Shown piece after piece: positions 2,568 to 34,776 of a stretch of DNA of 34,776 nt. How positions within the stretch are numbered: position 1 is the stretch's first letter; each line of letters begins with the position of its first letter. The stretch spans positions 1-34,776 of the IMG/VR virus record IMGVR_UViG_3300037541_000459. The stretch is one strand, 5' to 3'. A model generated the notes under the pieces. The model saw nothing but the letters and a program-made list of their open reading frames with translations. It searched no databases and was not told the DNA's origin. The position numbers and the translations under genes were made by a program. This DNA is from a virus.

Positions 2568-3892
2568 ATATACATCTTGTAAACAAAGATTATGAACGCG
2601 ACCTATTGCGGATTATCCTATCCGACCTTGAAAAGCCCGAACTCGTAATTGACAATTTGTCGGCTGACCTTTTCACTGGAATTGAAAGGGAAGCATTTTT
2701 AGTTGCTCAGTCCCTATGCCAAAATGGTAGCCCAGTTAATTTGATGACAATGCGCCACCTTGCCTTTGTTCAAAATAATAAAACACCCGTGACCGCCTTG
2801 TATCTTGCCGAACTGGTTGGCGGGTTGTTTGTGACAACTAACTGGCGACACTACCGCGAAACACTTGAAAGCTGTCGAATTGAACGCGCTAAAATTGAAA
2901 TCAAACGCTCGTTTATTGAGGAGTTTGAAAAGGACGGAATTGACTTCGCCGTTTCTCAGTTAATTGGCAGAATTGCCGAATTGAACGAAACTACGAAACC
3001 CGCCCACGTTTTGCTTGGGGATGCGGCTGTATCGCTGTTTGACGAAATTATGACTGTCGTTTCCTCTGGGAAACAACCGCCCCGCACCCCTACTGGCTTG
3101 TTTCACGTTGACCGCATACTTGGCGGCTTTAAGCCTTGCGAGTTGATACTGCTTGGCGGACGACCCGCTATGGGCAAGACCGCGTTGGCACTTCAGTTTG
3201 CTTTGAACCAAGCGACCCAAAAACACCCCGTCGCTTTTTTTAGTCTGGAAATGTCAGAAGCGCAATTGACTGGACGCGCTTTGTCCAATTTACTGGATTT
3301 TGACGGCAAACTATTAAACGACTACCTCCAGATGTCCTCGCAACAGATTGAGTTTATCCGTGAAAACTATTGGAGACTAAATATACCGTTACACGTTTTT
3401 GACCTTGACTATGCAGACCTACCCACGATTGAGGCGCATCTTTCCCGACTTATCCGTGAAAAGAAAATCGTTGGTGCGTATATCGACTATTTGCAACTTA
3501 TCCGCCCGTATGCATCTGACAGAGCGAAATCTAAATATGAGCAAATTACGGCAATTAGTATTGGCTTGAAAAATATGGCGAAACGGCTTGGCATCTGGGT
3601 CTGTGTTGTTTCGTCCCTTAGTCGCGGCGTTGATGGCAGACCCGACAAACGCCCTCTTATGAGTGACCTCAGAGAAAGTGGACAACTTGAGTACGACGCT
3701 GACAAAATAATATTTGTCTTTCGACCCGCAGAATATATGCCAATTGAGGAAGCCCCACAATTTATCAACTACCTTGAAATCATTATACGGAAACACCGTT
3801 CTGGCGCACTGGGAAACATTTTGACCCACGTTGAACTATCCCGCACCCGCGTAACAGATTGGGACGAATTGCAGTCCAAAGATTATTTTTGA
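2564..3892 (+). CDS. Replicative DNA helicase, DnaB family
   Basis: A 442-residue protein with full DnaB architecture. An N-terminal helical domain (~1-130) starts 'NKDYERDLLRIILSD'. The RecA-like C-terminal domain carries Walker A GRPAMGKT at about 199-206, FFSLEMSEAQL just after it (motif H1a), Walker B in GAYIDYLQLI at about 302-311, and the late motifs SSLSRGVDGRPDKRPLMSDL and ADKIIFVFR. It unwinds DNA 5' to 3' ahead of the replication fork. It overlaps the replisome organiser by 4 bp. Length is close to that of bacterial DnaB. The next promoter cassette starts about 18 bp after its stop. Confidence 0.95.
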   Translation: MNIHLVNKDYERDLLRIILSDLEKPELVIDNLSADLFTGIEREAFLVAQSLCQNGSPVNLMTMRHLAFVQNNKTPVTALYLAELVGGLFVTTNWRHYRETLESCRIERAKIEIKRSFIEEFEKDGIDFAVSQLIGRIAELNETTKPAHVLLGDAAVSLFDEIMTVVSSGKQPPRTPTGLFHVDRILGGFKPCELILLGGRPAMGKTALALQFALNQATQKHPVAFFSLEMSEAQLTGRALSNLLDFDGKLLNDYLQMSSQQIEFIRENYWRLNIPLHVFDLDYADLPTIEAHLSRLIREKKIVGAYIDYLQLIRPYASDRAKSKYEQITAISIGLKNMAKRLGIWVCVVSSLSRGVDGRPDKRPLMSDLRESGQLEYDADKIIFVFRPAEYMPIEEAPQFINYLEIIIRKHRSGALGNILTHVELSRTRVTDWDELQSKDYF

Positions 3893-5460: not shown

Positions 5461-5839
5461 CCGCAAATTCTCTAAAGTTGAAACCTCCAGATTGGAGGCT
5501 TCAACGTTGACGCCTATGCAACGCGTTGAAAGTTCTTCGTTATTAAAAGCATCATACAACCCAATTTTGAATAAAGTACAATTTACCCCGTCTTGGTTTC
5601 ATTATTATTCTGGACGTGACACCGTATTTGTCAATATTGACACCTCTGGGCGTATGACTATTCAATATCTAAAAGATAGTGTAACAAATAAAATTGTCGT
5701 GACCCAGAAAGACAGCGTTGTTGTTCAATACGACAAACGCGGGTCTTTTAGACAAACCTCAAATGCCTTTATTTGGGGCGTTGCTTTATCCTCCGCTTTT
5801 TGTGCTTTGATTTATTTGTTAAAACGACTGCGCCCGTGA
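5387..5839 (+). CDS. Candidate unimolecular spanin (lipobox plus C-terminal membrane segment)
   Basis: A 150-residue protein. Residues 1-24 form a lipoprotein signal peptide: MLKTNC, hydrophobic LLIPALCVVVI, then the lipobox LSGAC with Cys24. Residues ~127-145 form a transmembrane helix (FIWGVALSSAFCALIYLL) followed by the positive tail KRLRP. Between them lies a periplasmic stretch rich in beta strands (FHYYSGRDTVFVNID). An outer-membrane lipid anchor plus a C-terminal inner-membrane anchor is the defining topology of u-spanins such as phage T1 gp11, which fuse inner and outer membranes at lysis. Function is inferred from topology only. An in-frame GTG at 5363 would lengthen the signal peptide; the ATG is better. 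Confidence 0.6.
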   Translation: MLKTNCSTLLIPALCVVVILSGACSRKFSKVETSRLEASTLTPMQRVESSSLLKASYNPILNKVQFTPSWFHYYSGRDTVFVNIDTSGRMTIQYLKDSVTNKIVVTQKDSVVVQYDKRGSFRQTSNAFIWGVALSSAFCALIYLLKRLRP

Positions 5840-6174
5840 CCACCTATCAAAACGACATTTTTATTGAAATATGCAATCACTACGGCGTTTCGATTGCAGA
5901 CGTTTTGGGTCGTTCAAAAAAGTCCGAGATTGCTTTAGCAAGGCATACTATTGCCTATGTGTTCAAATATGGCTTCAATATGAGGTACAAACAAATTGCG
6001 CGAATACTTGACCGCCATCATAGCACAATTATCCACTCCGTTTTGACAATATCTGAGACAGAACGCATTTATCGCAAAAGCGTTTACAACTATGCAGTTT
6101 CGTTGTCAGAAATGATACAATCACCGCTACCGTCTTACTGGGCAATTCCCAGTCTTAAAAATGACAAAAGATGA
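5836..6174 (+). CDS. Stand-alone DnaA domain IV-like DNA-binding protein
   Basis: A 112-residue protein made almost entirely of the DnaA C-terminal HTH: 'ICNHYGVSIADVLGRSKKSE', then ARHTIAYVFKYGFNMRYKQI and ARILDRHHSTIIHSV. The last segment matches the DnaA-box recognition signature (…GRDHSTVxHA). The AAA+ ATPase domain is absent. The start is GTG at 5836, overlapping the upstream TGA; the open frame upstream of it lies inside the previous gene. It may bind DnaA boxes or compete with host DnaA (inference). It overlaps the sigma-like gene by 14 bp. Confidence 0.82.
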   Translation: MTTYQNDIFIEICNHYGVSIADVLGRSKKSEIALARHTIAYVFKYGFNMRYKQIARILDRHHSTIIHSVLTISETERIYRKSVYNYAVSLSEMIQSPLPSYWAIPSLKNDKR

Positions 6175-11447: not shown

Positions 11448-11465
11448 ACCAAAGCGATGAAAATT

Positions 11466-11489
11466 GCCCCGCCCCTTATGGGGCGTTTT
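11466..11489. terminator. Bidirectional terminator between convergent operons
   Basis: The stem CGCCCC (11470-11475), loop TTAT and GGGGCG (11480-11485) are flanked by GAAAA on the left and TTTTC on the right, so it can act in both directions. It lies between the rightward gene ending at 11447 and the leftward gene ending at 11489. Confidence 0.8.
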
Positions 11490-11878
11490 CATTTTAGGTA
11501 TTGCTCAATTTCAGACTTTGCCGCGTCAAAACCTACGGCAAAAATAGCCCTCCACCCACGCGCATTAAGTTTGGCAAGGACACTGGCTTGTTCTTTCAAA
11601 TGCTCTGTTGCGTACTCCCCGTTGCTTTTATGCAATCTTGTCCCCTCTTTCTTTAACTCGATTGCCAAGCCAACGTACCCCAGTCTTGGTTCAAAAATGA
11701 GCATATCTGGAAAGCCCCTTGTAGAACGCATTTTGGACATCATTACAGCCGTTCTTTTTGACAACCTTACTCCGCTACCGTCCGACAAAAACAACGCGTC
11801 TGGGAATGCGTATCGCATCCACAGCGATAATGCCAATTGTATCTCCTCCTCCCTATGTGTTCCACGTGGAACACTCAT
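11489..11878 (-). CDS. VRR-NUC domain nuclease
   Basis: A 129-residue protein of the VRR-NUC branch of PD-(D/E)XK nucleases. Visible motifs: acidic N-terminal helix (HREEEIQLALSLWMRYAFP), GFPDMLIFEP with the catalytic Asp, then VGLAIELKKEGTRL with Glu-x-Lys, and the closing helix LKEQASVLAKLNARGWRAIF. Phage VRR-NUC proteins are single-domain and may act as structure-specific nucleases in replication or packaging. It is the last gene of the second leftward operon and overlaps the holin-like gene (ATGA). Its first codons are formed by a perfect parS-like palindrome. Confidence 0.88.
   Translation of the reverse strand: MSVPRGTHREEEIQLALSLWMRYAFPDALFLSDGSGVRLSKRTAVMMSKMRSTRGFPDMLIFEPRLGYVGLAIELKKEGTRLHKSNGEYATEHLKEQASVLAKLNARGWRAIFAVGFDAAKSEIEQYLK
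11857..11874. promoter_or_regulatory. Perfect parS-like palindrome within the nuclease gene
   Basis: GTGTTCCACGTGGAACAC is an 18-bp perfect palindrome that contains the bacterial parS core TGTTnCACGTGnAACA bound by chromosomal ParB. It encodes codons 2-7 of the nuclease (SVPRGT). No ParA is encoded; two ParB-N-domain proteins are encoded but are of the IbrB/phage type. Confidence 0.7.
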
Positions 11879-12141
11879 TTTTGTTCATTAAATCTGTCCC
11901 CGTATTTGTCCAAAAACGCGTTGTTTTTTTCAATCTGGTTGAGCAAGATATCGCGTTGATTGTCATTACACGCCCGAACTTCCTCCCACAACATTTCAAT
12001 TTGTTTCTGGTACTTCTCCTCCACTTTATTGAGTTTGTCATATAGCATATAGCATACCAACGCCATAACTACAAATAACGTCCCGTTGCTCTTTAATACG
12101 TCAATCACTGCTTTGCCTATTTCTGGGTCTAACTTTATCAT
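11875..12141 (-). CDS. Holin-like protein (single membrane segment plus coiled coil)
   Basis: An 88-residue protein. One transmembrane helix at about 17-34 (LKSNGTLFVVMALVCYMLYD) is followed by a long charged coiled coil (KLNKVEEKYQKQIEMLWEEV and onward). This layout is that of BhlA/UviB-type holin-like proteins. I chose the ATG at 12141, which overlaps the upstream TGA; an in-frame upstream start at 12204 lies inside the previous gene. It lies among connector genes and the nuclease, far from the amidase, so its role in lysis is inferred. Confidence 0.65.
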   Translation of the reverse strand: MIKLDPEIGKAVIDVLKSNGTLFVVMALVCYMLYDKLNKVEEKYQKQIEMLWEEVRACNDNQRDILLNQIEKNNAFLDKYGDRFNEQK

Positions 12142-12695
12142 ACAATGGGTATTTGACAGACACTCTGGTTGAACGGGAACTGGAACAAAAATGTAGCTTT
12201 CCACCCCGCTAAAATATCATCTCTTGTGTCAACTAATCTTTGCAACGGGGCATTATCTGAAACAAAATAGTTTAGGTCTGGGCTGTCTGTAAAATATGAA
12301 AAATAGTCTTGAGCAATTAACAGCATAGCCTCCAAAGTTGCATCTTCACTGTCTTTCCATCTCCGTTCTTCATTAGTTGAATTTACATAGGTGACTATTT
12401 CATTTATTGCCACCCTATCATATTCTAACCCCGACGCGTCCGTCATTTTGTCCAAAAAATAAATGTCGGCTGTTATCTGCGTTGACCTACCTACAAACTG
12501 GGTCTGGGTCACGTCTACAAAAACCAACGGATAGGTTGTACGGCTTATGCCTATATCATCGTGACCCACTGCGCTTCCAACGTAAAATGTATTGTCTGCG
12601 CCGATGCTTATGGGGTCTCCACTACCGAACCCGTTGACTTGTTGGTGTCTGCGTGACAACGTTATCAAGTCGTTTTTCAAAGTTATCCAACTCAT
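12138..12695 (-). CDS. Probable head-tail completion or tail-terminator protein
   Basis: A 185-residue protein I cannot place in a named family. It has an N-terminal helix (TLKNDLITLSRRHQQVNGFG), a beta-rich middle (YPLVFVDVTQTQFVGRSTQI) and a C-terminal strand near FLFQFPFN. Size, order after the portal and connector, and beta-rich composition fit a head-completion or tail-terminator protein. It overlaps the preceding 53-residue ORF by 74 bp and the holin-like gene by 4 bp. Confidence 0.6.
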   Translation of the reverse strand: MSWITLKNDLITLSRRHQQVNGFGSGDPISIGADNTFYVGSAVGHDDIGISRTTYPLVFVDVTQTQFVGRSTQITADIYFLDKMTDASGLEYDRVAINEIVTYVNSTNEERRWKDSEDATLEAMLLIAQDYFSYFTDSPDLNYFVSDNAPLQRLVDTRDDILAGWKATFLFQFPFNQSVCQIPIV

Positions 12696-17429: not shown

Positions 17430-17436
17430 AAAACAA

Positions 17437-17460
17437 AAGCCCCCTAACGGGGGCTTTTTT
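17437..17460. terminator. Strong bidirectional terminator
   Basis: GCCCCC (17439-17444), loop TAAC and GGGGGC (17449-17454) are flanked by A-rich sequence on the left and six T residues on the right. It ends the rightward gene at 17429 and faces the leftward tail tube gene ending at 17484. Confidence 0.92.
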
Positions 17461-17467
17461 GTTTAAC

Positions 17468-17482
17468 TGTTCCACGTTGGAC
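17468..17482. promoter_or_regulatory. Degenerate parS-like sequence
   Basis: TGTTCCACGTTGGAC shares the first ten bases of the 11857-11874 site but has an extra T and a shortened right arm. It lies between the terminator and the tail tube stop. It may be a decayed site or chance. Confidence 0.25.
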
Positions 17483-29326: not shown

Positions 29327-29702
29327 TTGATTTTACGCTCAAATCTATTCCCACAAATATTGGCGTTTCTGGCTGTGTCTGCTCTACTTCTATTTTTGGC
29401 TGTCCATATACCCGTGTTGTCAAGCTGTCTATTGCGTACAAACTTCCCTTTACCAATCCTTTGTTTAACGCATTTGCTACTGTCCTTTCAAGTATTGTGG
29501 CATCTTCGTCCGCGTAAACTTGCTGTAATTCCTCACGGGTCATAGCCATCATATTGGCAATCGTTGTGTTTATTTGGGATTTTGAGTACCCGAATTGAAT
29601 ACGCAAATCCGATGCTAATTTTCTGGGTCTGCCTTTGGCATTACCCGTTTGACCTTTCACCCAAGACTTTAGGTATTGAGGGTTTCCATTAGGGTTTGGC
29701 AT
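29313..29702 (-). CDS. Terminase small subunit-like protein (DUF5681-like)
   Basis: A 129-residue protein starting MPNPNGNPQYLKSWVKGQTG and continuing NAKGRPRK, the DUF5681 type of DNA-binding N-terminus. The central region is helical (SKSQINTTIANMMAMTREEL) with VANALNKGLVKGSLYAIDSL after it. The ATG at 29702 is used instead of an in-frame TTG at 29738. It directly precedes and overlaps the terminase large subunit by 14 bp, so it is probably the small subunit that recognises the packaging site. Confidence 0.72.
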   Translation of the reverse strand: MPNPNGNPQYLKSWVKGQTGNAKGRPRKLASDLRIQFGYSKSQINTTIANMMAMTREELQQVYADEDATILERTVANALNKGLVKGSLYAIDSLTTRVYGQPKIEVEQTQPETPIFVGIDLSVKSNEGI

Positions 29703-30366
29703 ATATTGTTTTTTCACTGTTTTCTTTCTCCCAGTCAACGCGTTCTTTGAATTGCTTTTTTGTTTCCCACGCCTTTCTGTACTCGTGACTTTCGTACAAT
29801 TTTGAGAACCCCGTTATATGTTTGAGCCTTATTATTTCATCCGCGCTCATTCCTAACTCGTTGCATATCTCCGCGTCTGTCCACCCGTTGTCGAGCATTT
29901 GAAAGACCATATTTGACATTCCAGAAATTGAGTGCTGACCCCTCGCCCGATTATGCCTTACGGTTGCCGACATACGTTCATTGATGTTTTTCTTTATGAC
30001 GACAATTGGGACTGTTCCTTTATTTCGCGCCAATATATCTGGGTTGCTTTTTGCCGTGTGGTATCTGTGAAATCCGTCAACAATTACATATTTGTTTAAA
30101 GCTGGGTCGTAGATTGTCACAATTGGCTGGGTGTACCCGTCTTTCTCTATCGACTTATACAAAAGCCCCATTTCTACTTTCGCAACTGAATTTGGGTTGT
30201 AGTCGTTTGGACAAACCATATCAATATTAACCCACCGCACAAAGTCAATCGGCTGTTGGATAGGGCTGACTTCTGATAGAAATTGCCTTAACTCGTTAAT
30301 GTACTCAACTGGGTTTTTGCTTTTGTTTACGGCTTCCAGTATTTGCGCCTTTATTTCTTTGTTCAT
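29689..30366 (-). CDS. ParB-N domain protein, IbrB-like
   Basis: A 225-residue protein. After a helical N-terminus, a ParB/sulfiredoxin domain is seen: VNIDMVCPNDYNPNSVAKVE, then YTQPIVTIYDPALNKYVIVD and GFHRYHTAK (the H-x-x-x-A motif). It is followed by NINERMSATVRHNRARGQHS and an HTH-like NGWTDAEICNELGMSADEII. It has no ParA partner and no C-terminal dimerisation domain of chromosomal ParB. Its upstream neighbour is an IbrA-like protein with a 62-bp overlap, the same pair as E. coli ibrA-ibrB. The biochemical role of the pair is not established. Confidence 0.82.
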   Translation of the reverse strand: MNKEIKAQILEAVNKSKNPVEYINELRQFLSEVSPIQQPIDFVRWVNIDMVCPNDYNPNSVAKVEMGLLYKSIEKDGYTQPIVTIYDPALNKYVIVDGFHRYHTAKSNPDILARNKGTVPIVVIKKNINERMSATVRHNRARGQHSISGMSNMVFQMLDNGWTDAEICNELGMSADEIIRLKHITGFSKLYESHEYRKAWETKKQFKERVDWEKENSEKTIYAKP

Positions 30367-31567
30367 TTTCGTCTGTAAAAAAGTTCAATAATGTTTGTTC
30401 CATTTCTTTTGTCAAATACCTATTTTGAAGCAAATACTCTTTCCTCCACTTATACTTTTTTTCGGTTTTGACATCTTCATATACCCACACCGCTGGCATC
30501 CGCCAAAAGTTTCTAATTTTTGTATTTGCGTCGTCTCCGACAAGTATCGCGTTAATGCAACTCTTATACCAATCTGACCTAATTGGCTCATCTGTGTACA
30601 TTTCTTCTTTTGATTTCATCGTCGCTTTCAGTTTATTCTTTACAGTTTTATCTGAAACCAATTTGTCGGCAAGGTATTCCGCGTATTCTTTCCAATCCCC
30701 GAAACAATCTGGATGTTCTTTTGGACAATGGGTTACGTCCATTTTTAGATGCTTCAAAGCATTAGCCCCGCTTATTCTCGCCTCTAATTTATTCCAAAGT
30801 TCTGGGTCTATTTCTTGAACCCACGTCAATTGCACCAACGATGTTTCGTGATGTAGGTTTGAAATCCTCATTTGCTTTATTGGTGCGCCCTTACTCCAGA
30901 ATACGTCGTACAATTTGCAATACGGCCAATTGTGTTCGTGTATTGCTTTCCAGACGTCTGGCGTTGTCCAATCGTATATTGGGTAAAATGCATATTTTCC
31001 TTTTAATCTATCAACAATTCTCCCCCACGTTACCCATTTGTATTTTTTCATTTCTGTCAACGCCAATTGTCTCCCCACGCTTTCGTCTGCCCTAACGCCG
31101 CCAATAAGACAAGCCATTTGATTTGGAAATTCTTTCACCAGTATTGCGTCAAATAGCTGATAAAAACGGTCAACCCCGTATTTGTTTTTAGTTATGGCTA
31201 TGTCGCTTTTGTCCCTTAGCCACTGGTCTGGGTTGTCCTCGTCCCATACCTTTTTCCAATAGTCTGTATTGGACGCATTATTTGTCATCAAAAATGGTAT
31301 CTGATACCACATTGGCAATACGCGTTGGTCGCGCATAATTTGGTCAACGTATTCTATTACTCCAGACCACTCCGCCTCTTGGTCAATAAACATCACCCTT
31401 AACGGCAACCTCCCGCGTTTTTCGGCTTCTTCAAGGCACAAATTGAGTACGCAAGTGCTGTCTTTCCCCCCAGAAAATGCCACAATTGGCACCTCAAATT
31501 CGTCAAACAAATACGCAATTCGCTTCCGCGCCGCCTCTAACACATTCTCTTGAAGACATATTTTCAT
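30305..31567 (-). CDS. PAPS-reductase-family protein, IbrA-like (N-type ATP pyrophosphatase)
   Basis: A 420-residue protein. The PP-loop SGGKDSTCV is at residues 32-40, followed by MFIDQEAEWSGVIEYVDQIM, characteristic of the phosphoadenosine-phosphosulfate reductase superfamily; the next 200 residues hold IGGVRADESVGRQLALT and YPIYDWTTPDVWKAI. Cysteines (THCPKEHPDCFGDW) near residue 305 could bind metal. The ATG at 31567 overlaps the previous TGA; a longer open frame begins at 31669 inside the glycosyltransferase. IbrA/DndC-like proteins activate substrates with ATP; the substrate here is unknown. It forms a pair with the ParB-like gene downstream. Confidence 0.88.
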   Translation of the reverse strand: MKICLQENVLEAARKRIAYLFDEFEVPIVAFSGGKDSTCVLNLCLEEAEKRGRLPLRVMFIDQEAEWSGVIEYVDQIMRDQRVLPMWYQIPFLMTNNASNTDYWKKVWDEDNPDQWLRDKSDIAITKNKYGVDRFYQLFDAILVKEFPNQMACLIGGVRADESVGRQLALTEMKKYKWVTWGRIVDRLKGKYAFYPIYDWTTPDVWKAIHEHNWPYCKLYDVFWSKGAPIKQMRISNLHHETSLVQLTWVQEIDPELWNKLEARISGANALKHLKMDVTHCPKEHPDCFGDWKEYAEYLADKLVSDKTVKNKLKATMKSKEEMYTDEPIRSDWYKSCINAILVGDDANTKIRNFWRMPAVWVYEDVKTEKKYKWRKEYLLQNRYLTKEMEQTLLNFFTDENEQRNKGANTGSRKQKQKPS

Positions 31568-32172
31568 TCGTGTTTCTGAAAAGTTTTTGACACTCTGCCC
31601 CCTATGCGCTTTGGGCTTATCTCGCTTCTGTGTCCTAAATGCTGGGCTAAATTTGGCACTACGTTCCAATACTTATATTTCCTTTCCCCGCCCCAGTTTG
31701 CCATCATTAGGTCGCTTGGGCAAGAATGGTATCTTTCGTCTGGTAATGCCGTGTACCATTTATAACTGTATGCCAACAAGTCTTCAGCGTACCCGACTGG
31801 CAAATAATAACATACGCACGATGAAAATTTACTCATAGAAATATACCTACTGCCCAACTTTTCGTCAAACTTTCTTCTTGAAAAAAACTGTATGATTTCA
31901 TTTGGGCGTTTTTGTATTTCTGCTTTTGCCCTACTAATAAAATTGTCGCACAAATATGCGTCATCTTCTAAAAATATTGCCGCGCCGTTTTTAGCCTCCC
32001 TCCACCCATTCTGAAAATTGCCCCAAGCTGTGGACTTAAATTTTGGCAAAGGCTTTTCAAAATTGTCCTTGCAAATAACTACCTCTGGCTTTTCCGTGTC
32101 CGCGCTCAATTGCTCAATTAGCTTTTGAAGCATTTTCTCCCTATTTCTGCACGTTAACACAATTACCCTCAT
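31564..32172 (-). CDS. Glycosyltransferase-like protein, GT-A type
   Basis: A 202-residue protein: MRVIVLTCRNREKMLQKLIE (N-terminal beta-alpha nucleotide-sugar fold), then TAWGNFQNGWREAKNGAAIF with LEDDAYLCDNFIS, where EDD replaces the DxD metal motif. This resembles GT2/GT25-like enzymes. It overlaps both neighbours (ATGA at 32169, ATGA at 31564). It may glycosylate a modified base or a host factor; target unknown. Confidence 0.7.
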   Translation of the reverse strand: MRVIVLTCRNREKMLQKLIEQLSADTEKPEVVICKDNFEKPLPKFKSTAWGNFQNGWREAKNGAAIFLEDDAYLCDNFISRAKAEIQKRPNEIIQFFSRRKFDEKLGSRYISMSKFSSCVCYYLPVGYAEDLLAYSYKWYTALPDERYHSCPSDLMMANWGGERKYKYWNVVPNLAQHLGHRSEISPKRIGGRVSKTFQKHE

Positions 32173-32840
32173 TTCTGTAATTTGTTTATTCTGTCAATTG
32201 CCCTCCGCGCTCTGGCTGGGCTTAACTCATTCCCAATAAACCTCGCCCCGTAATGTATGGCCGCTTCAGCCGTTAACCCCAGTCCACAACAAGGGTCAAA
32301 TATTGTAGTCTGGGCATTTAACGCGTACGCCTCCAGACACTTGATTATCATTTTTGAACCGCCTATGTTTTGAAGTGCCTCCGCGTCTGGCACTTTACTC
32401 AATTGCTTTGCCCCCCCCGCGCTTTTGGTCAAAATGAATAGATGATGTTTCCGCCATTTACCCCCGCCAAAATAATTTATTTCTCTGAAGCCTTCAAAAA
32501 ACAAACCCGAATTTTTGATTGCACCGTGTACAAAATCAAAATGCTTTTCTCCGTACTCCATAAACATAACCGAATTGTGGTGCATAACCGCTTCAGATAT
32601 TTTCAGCAATCTCTCCAAAAAGACTAAAGCCGACCAGTCTTGCGTATCCTCATTTGGGTTCAACTTTCTGTTTTGGGTTTGAAAAAACTTCATCAAGCCG
32701 TCCCCCCAAGGCGGGTCTGCCCAAACAACGTCTGTCTTTTGGTCAAAAAATAACTCTGTTGGGTCAAGCCCCATTAGGTCTCCCGACCTAACAATATGAG
32801 GCAAATTTGGGTTTTTTTTATTTTTGATATGTACTATCAT
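32169..32840 (-). CDS. DNA methyltransferase, N6-adenine type, permuted motif order
   Basis: A 223-residue protein. Motif IV: VVWADPPWGDGLMKFF near residue 35. The AdoMet motif I: IFDPCCGLGLTAEAAI near residue 177, followed by GARFIGNELSPARA. This order (IV before I) marks the beta-type of DNA amino-methylases. The target-recognition domain is short, so specificity may be low or shared with another subunit. It lies in a cluster with another methyltransferase and two ParB-like proteins. A possible role is self-protection, since GATC and CTAG appear absent here. Confidence 0.85.
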   Translation of the reverse strand: MIVHIKNKKNPNLPHIVRSGDLMGLDPTELFFDQKTDVVWADPPWGDGLMKFFQTQNRKLNPNEDTQDWSALVFLERLLKISEAVMHHNSVMFMEYGEKHFDFVHGAIKNSGLFFEGFREINYFGGGKWRKHHLFILTKSAGGAKQLSKVPDAEALQNIGGSKMIIKCLEAYALNAQTTIFDPCCGLGLTAEAAIHYGARFIGNELSPARARRAIDRINKLQK

Positions 32841-33657
32841 ACGGTTTTTTTAGGATGACAATTGTGTACTCACCTATTTCGTCTGCCCCTTTATATGAAG
32901 CCAAAGGATATTGTTTCATTACCCCCTCAACTTTAGCCTCAAATAATTTGTGTATTTCAGATGCCCCATTTTTGTAAAACATCAAATACGCTTCCCCCCC
33001 CTCGTTGAGCATATCGTGCAAATACACATCTGTACCCGTCAACAAATAAGACGCTGTCCCCATTAGACAATATATGCGGTCAAACTTTCCCTCCCAGTAT
33101 TCTTCAACTGGGCAAGGTATAGTTTTGTATTCTGGATATTTTTCTCTAAATTTATTAACACACAACAACGACGGGTCTATGCCTACATAATTTTCTGGGT
33201 TTGGCAAACCTCCGCCGTCTTTTGTAATCATATCAAATAATGTTCCCGTACCACACCCGACCTCAAGAACCCGACCCACGTTGTCAAGTTTTACGTGTTG
33301 TTTTATCTCGCCCCAAGCGTATTGATACGCCTCACTTTCTAACGCCCACTCGTCATAAAAATCTGGGGCAAGGTCGTATGCGCTTCCGTATCTGTGTTGC
33401 GCTTTGTTTATCAAAATTGTTTCTTTTACTGGCGCACCCATTGACCAATACCGATACCCGTTCATTGTAAAAATAAGATAGGGCTTTTTCCAAAAATAGT
33501 ACAACTCCCCGTGTTCCCTTATGTACTCAACAACTTTGTAAAACTGCTCTCTACTTTTCCAGTTTTGTATCAAAGTGTATTGATGCGGGTTTTTAGTTGC
33601 TTTAGCCGTCCTATATGGGTACGCCTCCAACAACTCTATGCACCTTTGGTGGTTCAC
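32818..33657 (-). CDS. Class I SAM-dependent methyltransferase
   Basis: A 279-residue protein. The N-terminal ~100 residues are a separate helical/beta domain (QNWKSREQFYKVVEYIREHG; YYFWKKPYLIFTMNGYRYWS). The AdoMet-binding motif GRVLEVGCGTGTLFDMI is near residue 128, with YVGIDPSLLCVNKFREKYPE after it and FDRIYCLMGTASYL as motif IV region. The start is taken as GTG at 33657 because it overlaps the previous TGA (GTGA), matching other junctions; a TTG at 33690 is less likely. The substrate is unknown; not a DNA methylase by motif IV. Confidence 0.8.
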   Translation of the reverse strand: MNHQRCIELLEAYPYRTAKATKNPHQYTLIQNWKSREQFYKVVEYIREHGELYYFWKKPYLIFTMNGYRYWSMGAPVKETILINKAQHRYGSAYDLAPDFYDEWALESEAYQYAWGEIKQHVKLDNVGRVLEVGCGTGTLFDMITKDGGGLPNPENYVGIDPSLLCVNKFREKYPEYKTIPCPVEEYWEGKFDRIYCLMGTASYLLTGTDVYLHDMLNEGGEAYLMFYKNGASEIHKLFEAKVEGVMKQYPLASYKGADEIGEYTIVILKKPYDSTYQK

Positions 33658-34178
33658 GATAGCAAAAATTGATGGTGACAATTTGGGCAAATAACCTCTT
33701 TATAGGACGCCCCCGAATTCATAGCTTTTTCCATTTGCTCTTTTCTGGCGTTGATTTCATCGTCTGACAATTCTTTGCCGTCCGTCACTGGGTCTGTCGT
33801 TGGCGCATAAACTGGCGTAAAATCGGGAACTACTCCCCATTCTTTCAAATCGGCATTATCCCAATTGTTGGCCAAATCTTCCCAATCCCATTCACCGCTT
33901 GAATGATTGTCTTTTATTACAAACTCCCTTTGTTTTTCCTCAGACCAGTCAACAACAACAACACGCACTTTATCCCAACCCAACTCTTGAATTGCCCGAA
34001 ACCTCTGATTGCCCCCTAACACAACCATTTCTTTATTGACTACAATCGGTCTTGTCTCTAACATTTCTGGAAAATCTTTTAGTGACTGTACCAACTTTTT
34101 GAACTTCGCGTCTCTAATACATCGCGGGTTAAATGAGTTCAAAATAACGTCCCCTACTGAAACTACTATTGTTTTCAT
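33654..34178 (-). CDS. ParB-N domain protein with C-terminal CxxC
   Basis: A 174-residue protein. The ParB/Srx fold is visible: NSFNPRCIRDAKFKKLVQSL, PIVVNKEMVVLGGNQRFRAI with GGNQRFRA, then KQREFVIKDNHSSGEWDWED and NADLKEWGVVPDF. This variety is often encoded beside phage DNA methylases. The C-terminus ends in VICPNCHHQFLLS, one CxxC that may form half of a zinc ribbon. It lies between the GP88-like and methyltransferase genes. Confidence 0.85.
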   Translation of the reverse strand: MKTIVVSVGDVILNSFNPRCIRDAKFKKLVQSLKDFPEMLETRPIVVNKEMVVLGGNQRFRAIQELGWDKVRVVVVDWSEEKQREFVIKDNHSSGEWDWEDLANNWDNADLKEWGVVPDFTPVYAPTTDPVTDGKELSDDEINARKEQMEKAMNSGASYKEVICPNCHHQFLLS

Positions 34179-34193
34179 AATTTATTTTTTGGT

Positions 34194-34776
34194 TTATTTT
34201 TGGTTTATTTTTTTTTGCTTTTCTTTAGAAATAACCGCGTTGTCAATTAACGCAAATTTTCTGACCTCCCGCTTTCTGGCATAGTCGTCGTTTGTATCTA
34301 TTGGCAACCCGTCTGGCACTTCAGCCGCCGTTTTGTATACCTCTACATTTTTAAGCCCGTGTTTGTCTATTAAATAATCGTCTTTTCCGCCCCGCGATGC
34401 AGTCAAAACTAAATTGTCTGGTATATCTCCAAGACGCTTTTCCCAATACCTTAACCACTTAGTGTATGCCCAAAACTCAACAAACGGGTTCTCCCTCGCC
34501 GTTCTAATCCAATTGTCAAAATAGTCTTGGTTAAAAAAATCTCCCGACGTATGAATTCTAACGGCAACCGCGTCTTTGGGCAAAACTATCTTTTCGTTCT
34601 TTTTTGCAAACTCAAAGTTTGCCCACCTACGTTTGCGAACGGCTGGAAATCTCTCCGCTTTTGAAGCATAGCAATAATACCTCCCAGATGCGTTTTCAAA
34701 TCTCCCCGTCTCTTTGTCAACTTTGACCAAACACTCTTTCGCAAAAGGACAAGTCCAACCCGTTGGCAAGTTGAAC
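34194..34776 (-). CDS. GP88-like phage protein, C-terminal part (continues from left edge)
   Basis: The 3' portion of the gene that begins near base 256 on the circle. Features: NLPTGWTCPFAKECLVKVD with cysteines, GRYYCYASKAERFPAVRKRR, VRIHTSGDFFNQDYFDNWIR and FVEFWAYTKWLRYW. These match the GP88-type family (phage proteins of unknown function; I recall them from mycobacteriophages). The lysine-rich C-terminus (SKEKQKKINQK) lies in a repeated TTTATTTTTGG sequence. It precedes the ParB-like gene by 15 bp. In this window the start is truncated; TTG at 34767-34769 is only the first start-like codon remaining. Confidence 0.8.
   Translation of the reverse strand, partial: FNLPTGWTCPFAKECLVKVDKETGRFENASGRYYCYASKAERFPAVRKRRWANFEFAKKNEKIVLPKDAVAVRIHTSGDFFNQDYFDNWIRTARENPFVEFWAYTKWLRYWEKRLGDIPDNLVLTASRGGKDDYLIDKHGLKNVEVYKTAAEVPDGLPIDTNDDYARKREVRKFALIDNAVISKEKQKKINQK
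34565..34776. repeat. Right copy of terminal direct repeat (contig overlap)
   Basis: Identical to 1-212 apart from T at 34650 versus C at 86. It shows that the two ends overlap on a circular or redundant molecule; the GP88-like reading frame crosses the junction. Confidence 0.95.

Follow-up and report, generated by a model that had tools for sequence, protein, structure and literature searches.

A host-type parS site in a phage genome without ParA: a putative loading site for host ParB

The viral DNA analysed here, a stretch of 34,776 nt (hereafter the window), carries a long perfect palindrome that contains an exact parS site of the chromosomal type, in a phage genome where no ParA was recognised. 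We consider it probable that this palindrome is an orphan host-type parS, which loads the host's ParB onto the phage DNA, likely for segregation or positioning. Phage sites of this kind are already known, namely from phi29; the more interesting part of our results is their breadth and conservation across phages.

The parS palindrome and the gene that carries it

The features around the site are collected in Table 1. As the original prediction had it, the palindrome GTGTTCCACGTGGAACAC occupies positions 11857–11874 and holds the core of chromosomal parS. The exact 16-mer, TGTTCCACGTGGAACA, spans 11858–11873 and matches without mismatch the consensus TGTTYCACGTGRAACA, by which we recognise parS sites of the chromosomal type. 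Among the perfect palindromes of the window, GTGTTCCACGTGGAACAC is the longest and the sole one above 14 bp (the runners-up measure 14 bp), and the only CACGTG of the window lies within it. Under Markov models of order 1 to 3, between 1.3e-5 and 1.7e-6 copies of the 16-mer would be expected in the window.

Table 1. Sequence features at the parS palindrome and its degenerate relative
Feature	Positions	Strand	Remarks
18-bp palindrome GTGTTCCACGTGGAACAC with exact chromosomal-type parS TGTTCCACGTGGAACA	11857..11874		Equals Bacteroidota chromosomal parS
Degenerate parS-like GTTCCACGTTGGAC, possibly a decayed copy	17469..17482		Directly after bidirectional terminator 17435–17458
VRR-NUC-like nuclease gene; parS forms codons 2–7, (S)VPRGT, which precede the nuclease domain	11489..11878	-	Pfam VRR_NUC, phrog_824
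Small gene without family match; its stop overlaps the nuclease start (ATGA)	11875..12204	-	Adjoins the nuclease gene upstream
Terminator-like hairpin	11465..11485	+	Convergent junction: rightward genes meet the leftward late genes at their nuclease end

A degenerate relative of the site had been predicted near 17468–17482. It is real, with two mismatches in 14 positions, against a chance expectation of about 0.07 obtained by simulation; it sits directly after a terminator and fits a decayed parS site, a reading that is suggestive rather than proven. The origin-proximal, multi-copy placement typical of chromosomal parS is absent, the window having one exact and one degenerate copy, 5.6 kb apart, in a phage genome; this concerns the location of the site and is a matter separate from its binding.

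Restriction-type 4-mers are strongly avoided in the window, as judged from observed versus expected counts (GATC 0 vs 46, CTAG 0 vs 55, CATG 3 vs 86, CCGG 4 vs 56, GGCC 13 vs 94).

On the minus strand, the nuclease gene begins ATG AGT GTT CCA CGT GGA ACA CAT, i.e., M S V P R G T H, in agreement with the SVPRGT that the palindrome had been said to encode. The palindrome starts immediately 3' of the ATG, some 370 bp from the convergent junction, and the gene is the last of the leftward series. The ATG start is credible because of the ATGA overlap with the upstream gene. An alternative TTG start, 15 codons in, would leave the site between genes, but it appears less likely, as both the overlap and an EEEIQ stretch fit the first ATG.

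The VRR-NUC label originally given to this gene stood only in part. The Pfam match to VRR_NUC (PF08774; residues 42–85, E=0.003) scores 18 bits, below the gathering cutoff of 23.8, whereas a nuclease is supported by phrog_824 (E=3.6e-21) and by a PHROG of the Holliday-junction-resolvase family (E=6e-7). No close relatives of the nuclease were found in IMG/VR, and its matches in cultured phages are about 30–36% identical.

The phage genome and its ParB-like genes

The window ends in a direct repeat of 212 bp with one mismatch (1–212 and 34565–34776), hence it is probably a complete phage genome, with a unit of about 34.56 kb. Its rightward genes encode an Erf-like annealing protein, a DnaD-like loader, a DnaB helicase, RadC and an amidase, and facing them are leftward late genes for terminase, portal, a capsid-type protein and tape measure. 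Neither an integrase nor a repressor was recognised among the window genes searched, and the phage is probably lytic.

The original prediction described a phage without ParA, and indeed no KGGxGK[ST] motif occurs in the six frames of this probably complete contig, which places the window outside the phage ParABS systems, where ParA and ParB are both encoded. The prediction had missed two genes whose products carry a ParB_N domain according to Pfam, at 29689–30366 and 33654–34178. The 29689–30366 protein matches phrog_2159, a 'ParB-like partition protein' (E=3e-70), and no solved relative of it was found beyond a weak ParB_N match; in neither of the two proteins did Pfam detect the ParB HTH domain. 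The window thus combines an exact site with the lack of ParA and with ParB_N proteins devoid of an HTH match, which is the arrangement of an orphan host-type parS (exact site, no ParA and no parS-binding ParB encoded).

On the minus strand, the stretch 29689–31669 holds the gene of this IbrB-like ParB_N protein beside an IbrA-like PAPS-reductase gene, and methyltransferase-like genes lie near (32169–33690); together they are possibly a DNA modification module. On the plus strand, the gene at 5773–6174 encodes a phage protein with the C-terminal, DnaA-box-binding domain of DnaA (Pfam E=5e-15). No DnaA boxes were found in the window, including the vicinity of the parS site.

The nearest named relatives of the terminase belong to Flavobacterium and Bacteroides phages, so that a Bacteroidota host is likely.

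parS in Bacteroidota chromosomes

The consensus TGTTYCACGTGRAACA occurred in 87 of 118 Bacteroidota genomes, at one to five copies each, while a control with the reversed pattern was found in one genome. The exact form of the window, TGTTCCACGTGGAACA, was present in 31 of 296 Bacteroidota genomes (about 10%), with one to three copies each, and its control in none. Such a low share of the sampled genomes speaks to some extent against a site meant for host ParB, though ParB should recognise the TT/AA forms of parS as well.

The usual neighbourhood of parS is mnmG, and in four of four Bacteroidota loci inspected the site was at or adjoining this gene. The 16-mer of these chromosomal sites is identical to that of the window, and by its sequence the window site is indistinguishable from a Bacteroidota chromosomal parS. 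The settings differ: on the chromosome the sites belong to the origin region and, where they fall inside a gene, are translated as FHVE (an mnmG start being one example), whereas the window site lies in a phage gene and reads VPRGT. Capture of a host origin fragment was rejected on these grounds, namely the phage genes on both flanks and the differing frame.

Host-type parS sites in other viruses

Searching IMG/VR, we found TGTTCCACGTGGAACA in at least 120 stretches, whereas two control palindromes sharing the CACGTG core of the parS 16-mer occurred in 2 and 1. The complete 18-mer of the window, GTGTTCCACGTGGAACAC, occurred in 61 stretches. Host-type parS is therefore strongly over-represented in viruses, far above chance. 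The matches listed comprised 123 distinct sites, 59% of which fell within ORFs, compared with 88% of random positions in the same loci (P=2e-15), meaning that viral parS sites are biased to the gaps between genes. Among the matches listed, 40 of the 73 in-gene sites were in the VPRGT frame, as in the window. No ParA Walker motif was seen in the loci of the 123 listed sites, within the limited flanks that these loci offer.

Some of these viruses carry many sites: G165 (L362, L363) has 15 in 39.8 kb and G157 (L360, L361) has 13 in 41 kb, while G158 (L364) and G163 (L365) have five each. No ParA motif was found in any of the four.

Cultured phages were searched by BLAST with N-padded 18-mers, representing three parS forms and two control palindromes. 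The window form matched 23 records, of which 14 were Pseudomonas phages, whose host chromosomes presumably bear parS of the same type as the window. The form ATGTTCCACGTGGAACAT matched 41 records and ATGTTTCACGTGAAACAT matched 198 (phages of Microbacterium, Listeria, Gordonia, Arthrobacter, Bacillus and others), compared with 0 and 0 for the controls. It is the TT/AA form that occurs in the Microbacterium, Listeria, Gordonia and Bacillus phages. In two of these searches, both fully listed, no Escherichia or Salmonella phages appeared. One search, on the other hand, returned 10 records of Klebsiella phages. Klebsiella is not known to have a chromosomal ParABS, so these records do not fit the rule that the sites address host ParB, and they count against our reading of the window.

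Four exact parS sites, at 294, 963, 4266 and 7655, lie within the first 8 kb of Pseudomonas phage vB_PpS_SYP (OQ183418, L375). Microviruses, of only 5 kb, also appeared in the cultured-phage searches, with one or two perfect sites that are mostly intergenic; Chicken microvirus mg6_154 (L373), for instance, has them at 3016 and 3048.

Selection on the sites

Conservation could be followed in a large marine phage protein whose gene (in L046, site at 5835–5850) holds the site in the VPRGT frame. Its relatives (L376–L400) were fetched by protein homology, with one seed peptide beside the site and none on it, giving 25 loci that include the query's own contig. All 25 have a parS with at most one mismatch at the corresponding position, even where protein identity falls to 24%. 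Where the amino acid was the same, codon identity was 97.4% in the five site codons, compared with 71.5% elsewhere. The only amino-acid replacement at the site, Gly to Glu in three relatives, corresponds to a change of the DNA from TGTTCCACGTGGAACA to TGTTCCACGTGAAACA, which is another form of parS; the protein was altered and parS was kept.

Sites are also retained among the relatives of phi29, since B103 and Goe1 keep those of gene 10 and gene 15, the latter with 15 of 16 bases equal at a gene identity of 67%. Host-type parS sites are thus under selection in other phages, and this extends to synonymous positions.

For the lineage of the window itself the evidence is weaker. Neither the 38 records sharing a related terminase nor the 80 portal-relative loci contain a site within two mismatches, so parS has not long been part of this lineage; the window's own relatives that we found have neither the nuclease gene nor the site. 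Two more distant relatives, recognised by a portal or capsid homologue, do carry perfect sites. In L005 the site is intergenic and follows closely on a terminator where genes converge; in L031 it lies just after the stop of a capsid-type gene, with a second form about 950 bp further on. The gain of parS in the window lineage looks recent or repeated. In genome contigs, no portal relatives were found and the terminase search returned one Bacteroidales MAG.

Proposed function and its alternatives

The loading of ParB as a CTP clamp and its sliding are established biochemistry (PMC12704722). We infer that a host ParB would bind the phage site to the phage's benefit, as follows. After infection, chromosomal ParB of the host, and not a phage protein, would load on the phage parS, close into a CTP clamp and travel along the phage DNA nearby; host ParA would couple this ParB to nucleoid-based segregation or positioning. 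The phage would supply the DNA tag only, borrowing ParA and ParB from its host. The most likely use is that the phage DNA would be handled like an origin region, i.e., tethered or positioned on the nucleoid and passed to both daughters during slow lysis, in the manner reported of phi29 with Spo0J.

Of the roles originally suggested, recruitment of host ParB has become the leading reading, because of the identity with Bacteroidota parS and the over-representation of parA-less sites in phages. In contrast, a roadblock of the nuclease gene does not hold up as a role specific to this case, since in other phages the site lies within unrelated genes or in intergenic positions. Besides the points already mentioned, recruitment has against it the presence of just one good copy, its position in a gene and not in a gap, and the lack of the site in the terminase and portal relatives.

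Another possibility, which we find doubtful, is that the site acts as a decoy, titrating host ParB or disturbing segregation, or that ParB represses the nuclease gene from it. Even one site per copy would multiply with phage replication, and the parS copies of SGI1 destabilise the helper plasmid, an effect thought to be due partly to competition (PMC10954446). A single site nevertheless seems poor for a decoy when other phages carry 5–15. As for repression, ParB bound to parS is described as able to repress neighbouring promoters (PMC5521831), but repression of a specific gene is not general, given that the sites elsewhere are in unrelated genes or gaps.

It is unlikely that the palindrome serves instead as an RNA hairpin, tuning translation of the nuclease or, as a rightward terminator, halting transcripts before they enter the leftward genes. 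The transcript does fold into a 7-bp hairpin (-10.5 kcal/mol), and on the plus strand a T-rich tail resembles that of a terminator. Furthermore, the parS cores of G157 are inside longer hairpins with compensating flanks, ending in T runs, so these sites may double as terminators, and T tails follow 25% of the IMG/VR sites, compared with 14% of random positions. Yet any stem would serve for a hairpin, whereas it is the exact sequence that recurs and the control palindromes do not; the sites of G165 are without T tails, and the identity with chromosomal parS would be left unexplained. Use as a hairpin or terminator may be an added function of the site.

A functionless 16-bp match arising by pure chance is quite unlikely. 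No close relative of the window shares the site, and it was noticed post hoc in a large scan, but the expectation of 1e-5 or less per window, the over-representation in viruses and the synonymous conservation in another phage group all speak against chance.

That one of the phage's own ParB-domain proteins uses the site as an operator or for loading is highly improbable, for although both have ParB_N and one has the phrog_2159 match, neither shows a ParB HTH in Pfam, the 29689–30366 protein is IbrB-like, next to a PAPS-reductase/IbrA-like gene and with no solved relative found beyond a weak ParB_N match, and relatives bearing their homologues are without parS (41 terminase-set loci for the 33654–34178 protein, L178 for the other).

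Comparison with known systems

Host ParB recruitment by an orphan site finds its closest parallel in phi29, whose entrapment in spores is described as dependent on Spo0J (Meijer et al. 2005, cited in PMC9437464); on that description, phi29 demonstrates that host ParB is open to use by a virulent phage. Like the probably lytic window phage, phi29 is virulent, has no ParABS genes and carries exact host-type parS: four sites, three in genes and one after gene 16, at convergent terminators. Its gene-15 site reads VSRGT, in the same frame as the VPRGT of the window. The two differ in that phi29 has four copies, a sporulating host and an experimentally established role of ParB, whereas the window has one good copy, a presumed Bacteroidota host and a role of ParB that we propose from comparison. 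Bacteroidota, as far as we know, do not sporulate, so the benefit to the window phage cannot be the same spore benefit.

SGI1, too, has parS without ParA and ParB of its own and uses the partition proteins of another replicon, its stolen IncC-plasmid parS sites stabilising the island and disturbing the helper (PMC10954446). However, SGI1 is not a phage, and the system it borrows is that of a plasmid, whose parS is unrelated, while the window is a phage with the host-type site. Finally, P1, N15, cyanophage Mic1 and extrachromosomal mycobacteriophages have a ParB–parS complex in a phage, as proposed for the window, but with their own ParA and ParB and a private parS, whereas the window phage lacks ParA and has the host's site.

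Our literature search, whose coverage was incomplete and which does not prove absence, found no paper surveying phages for orphan host-type parS.

Implications

Beyond the window, we lean towards the view that orphan parS loading of host ParB is a widespread phage strategy, including in non-sporulating hosts and in tiny microviruses, with one to fifteen sites kept by each of many unrelated phages and some of them at fixed synonymous codons. The survey suggests that orphan parS is common and conserved, also where hosts do not form spores. One practical consequence concerns metagenomes, where looking for plasmid or chromosome origins by their parS will also turn up phages.

If host ParB does load on the window site, a probably lytic phage would be using the segregation machinery of its host while contributing only 16 bp of DNA, without any protein. 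What a phage might gain from ParB on its DNA thereby becomes testable: it could be inherited during a slow infection, be positioned in the cell, pass as self, or disturb the segregation of the host.
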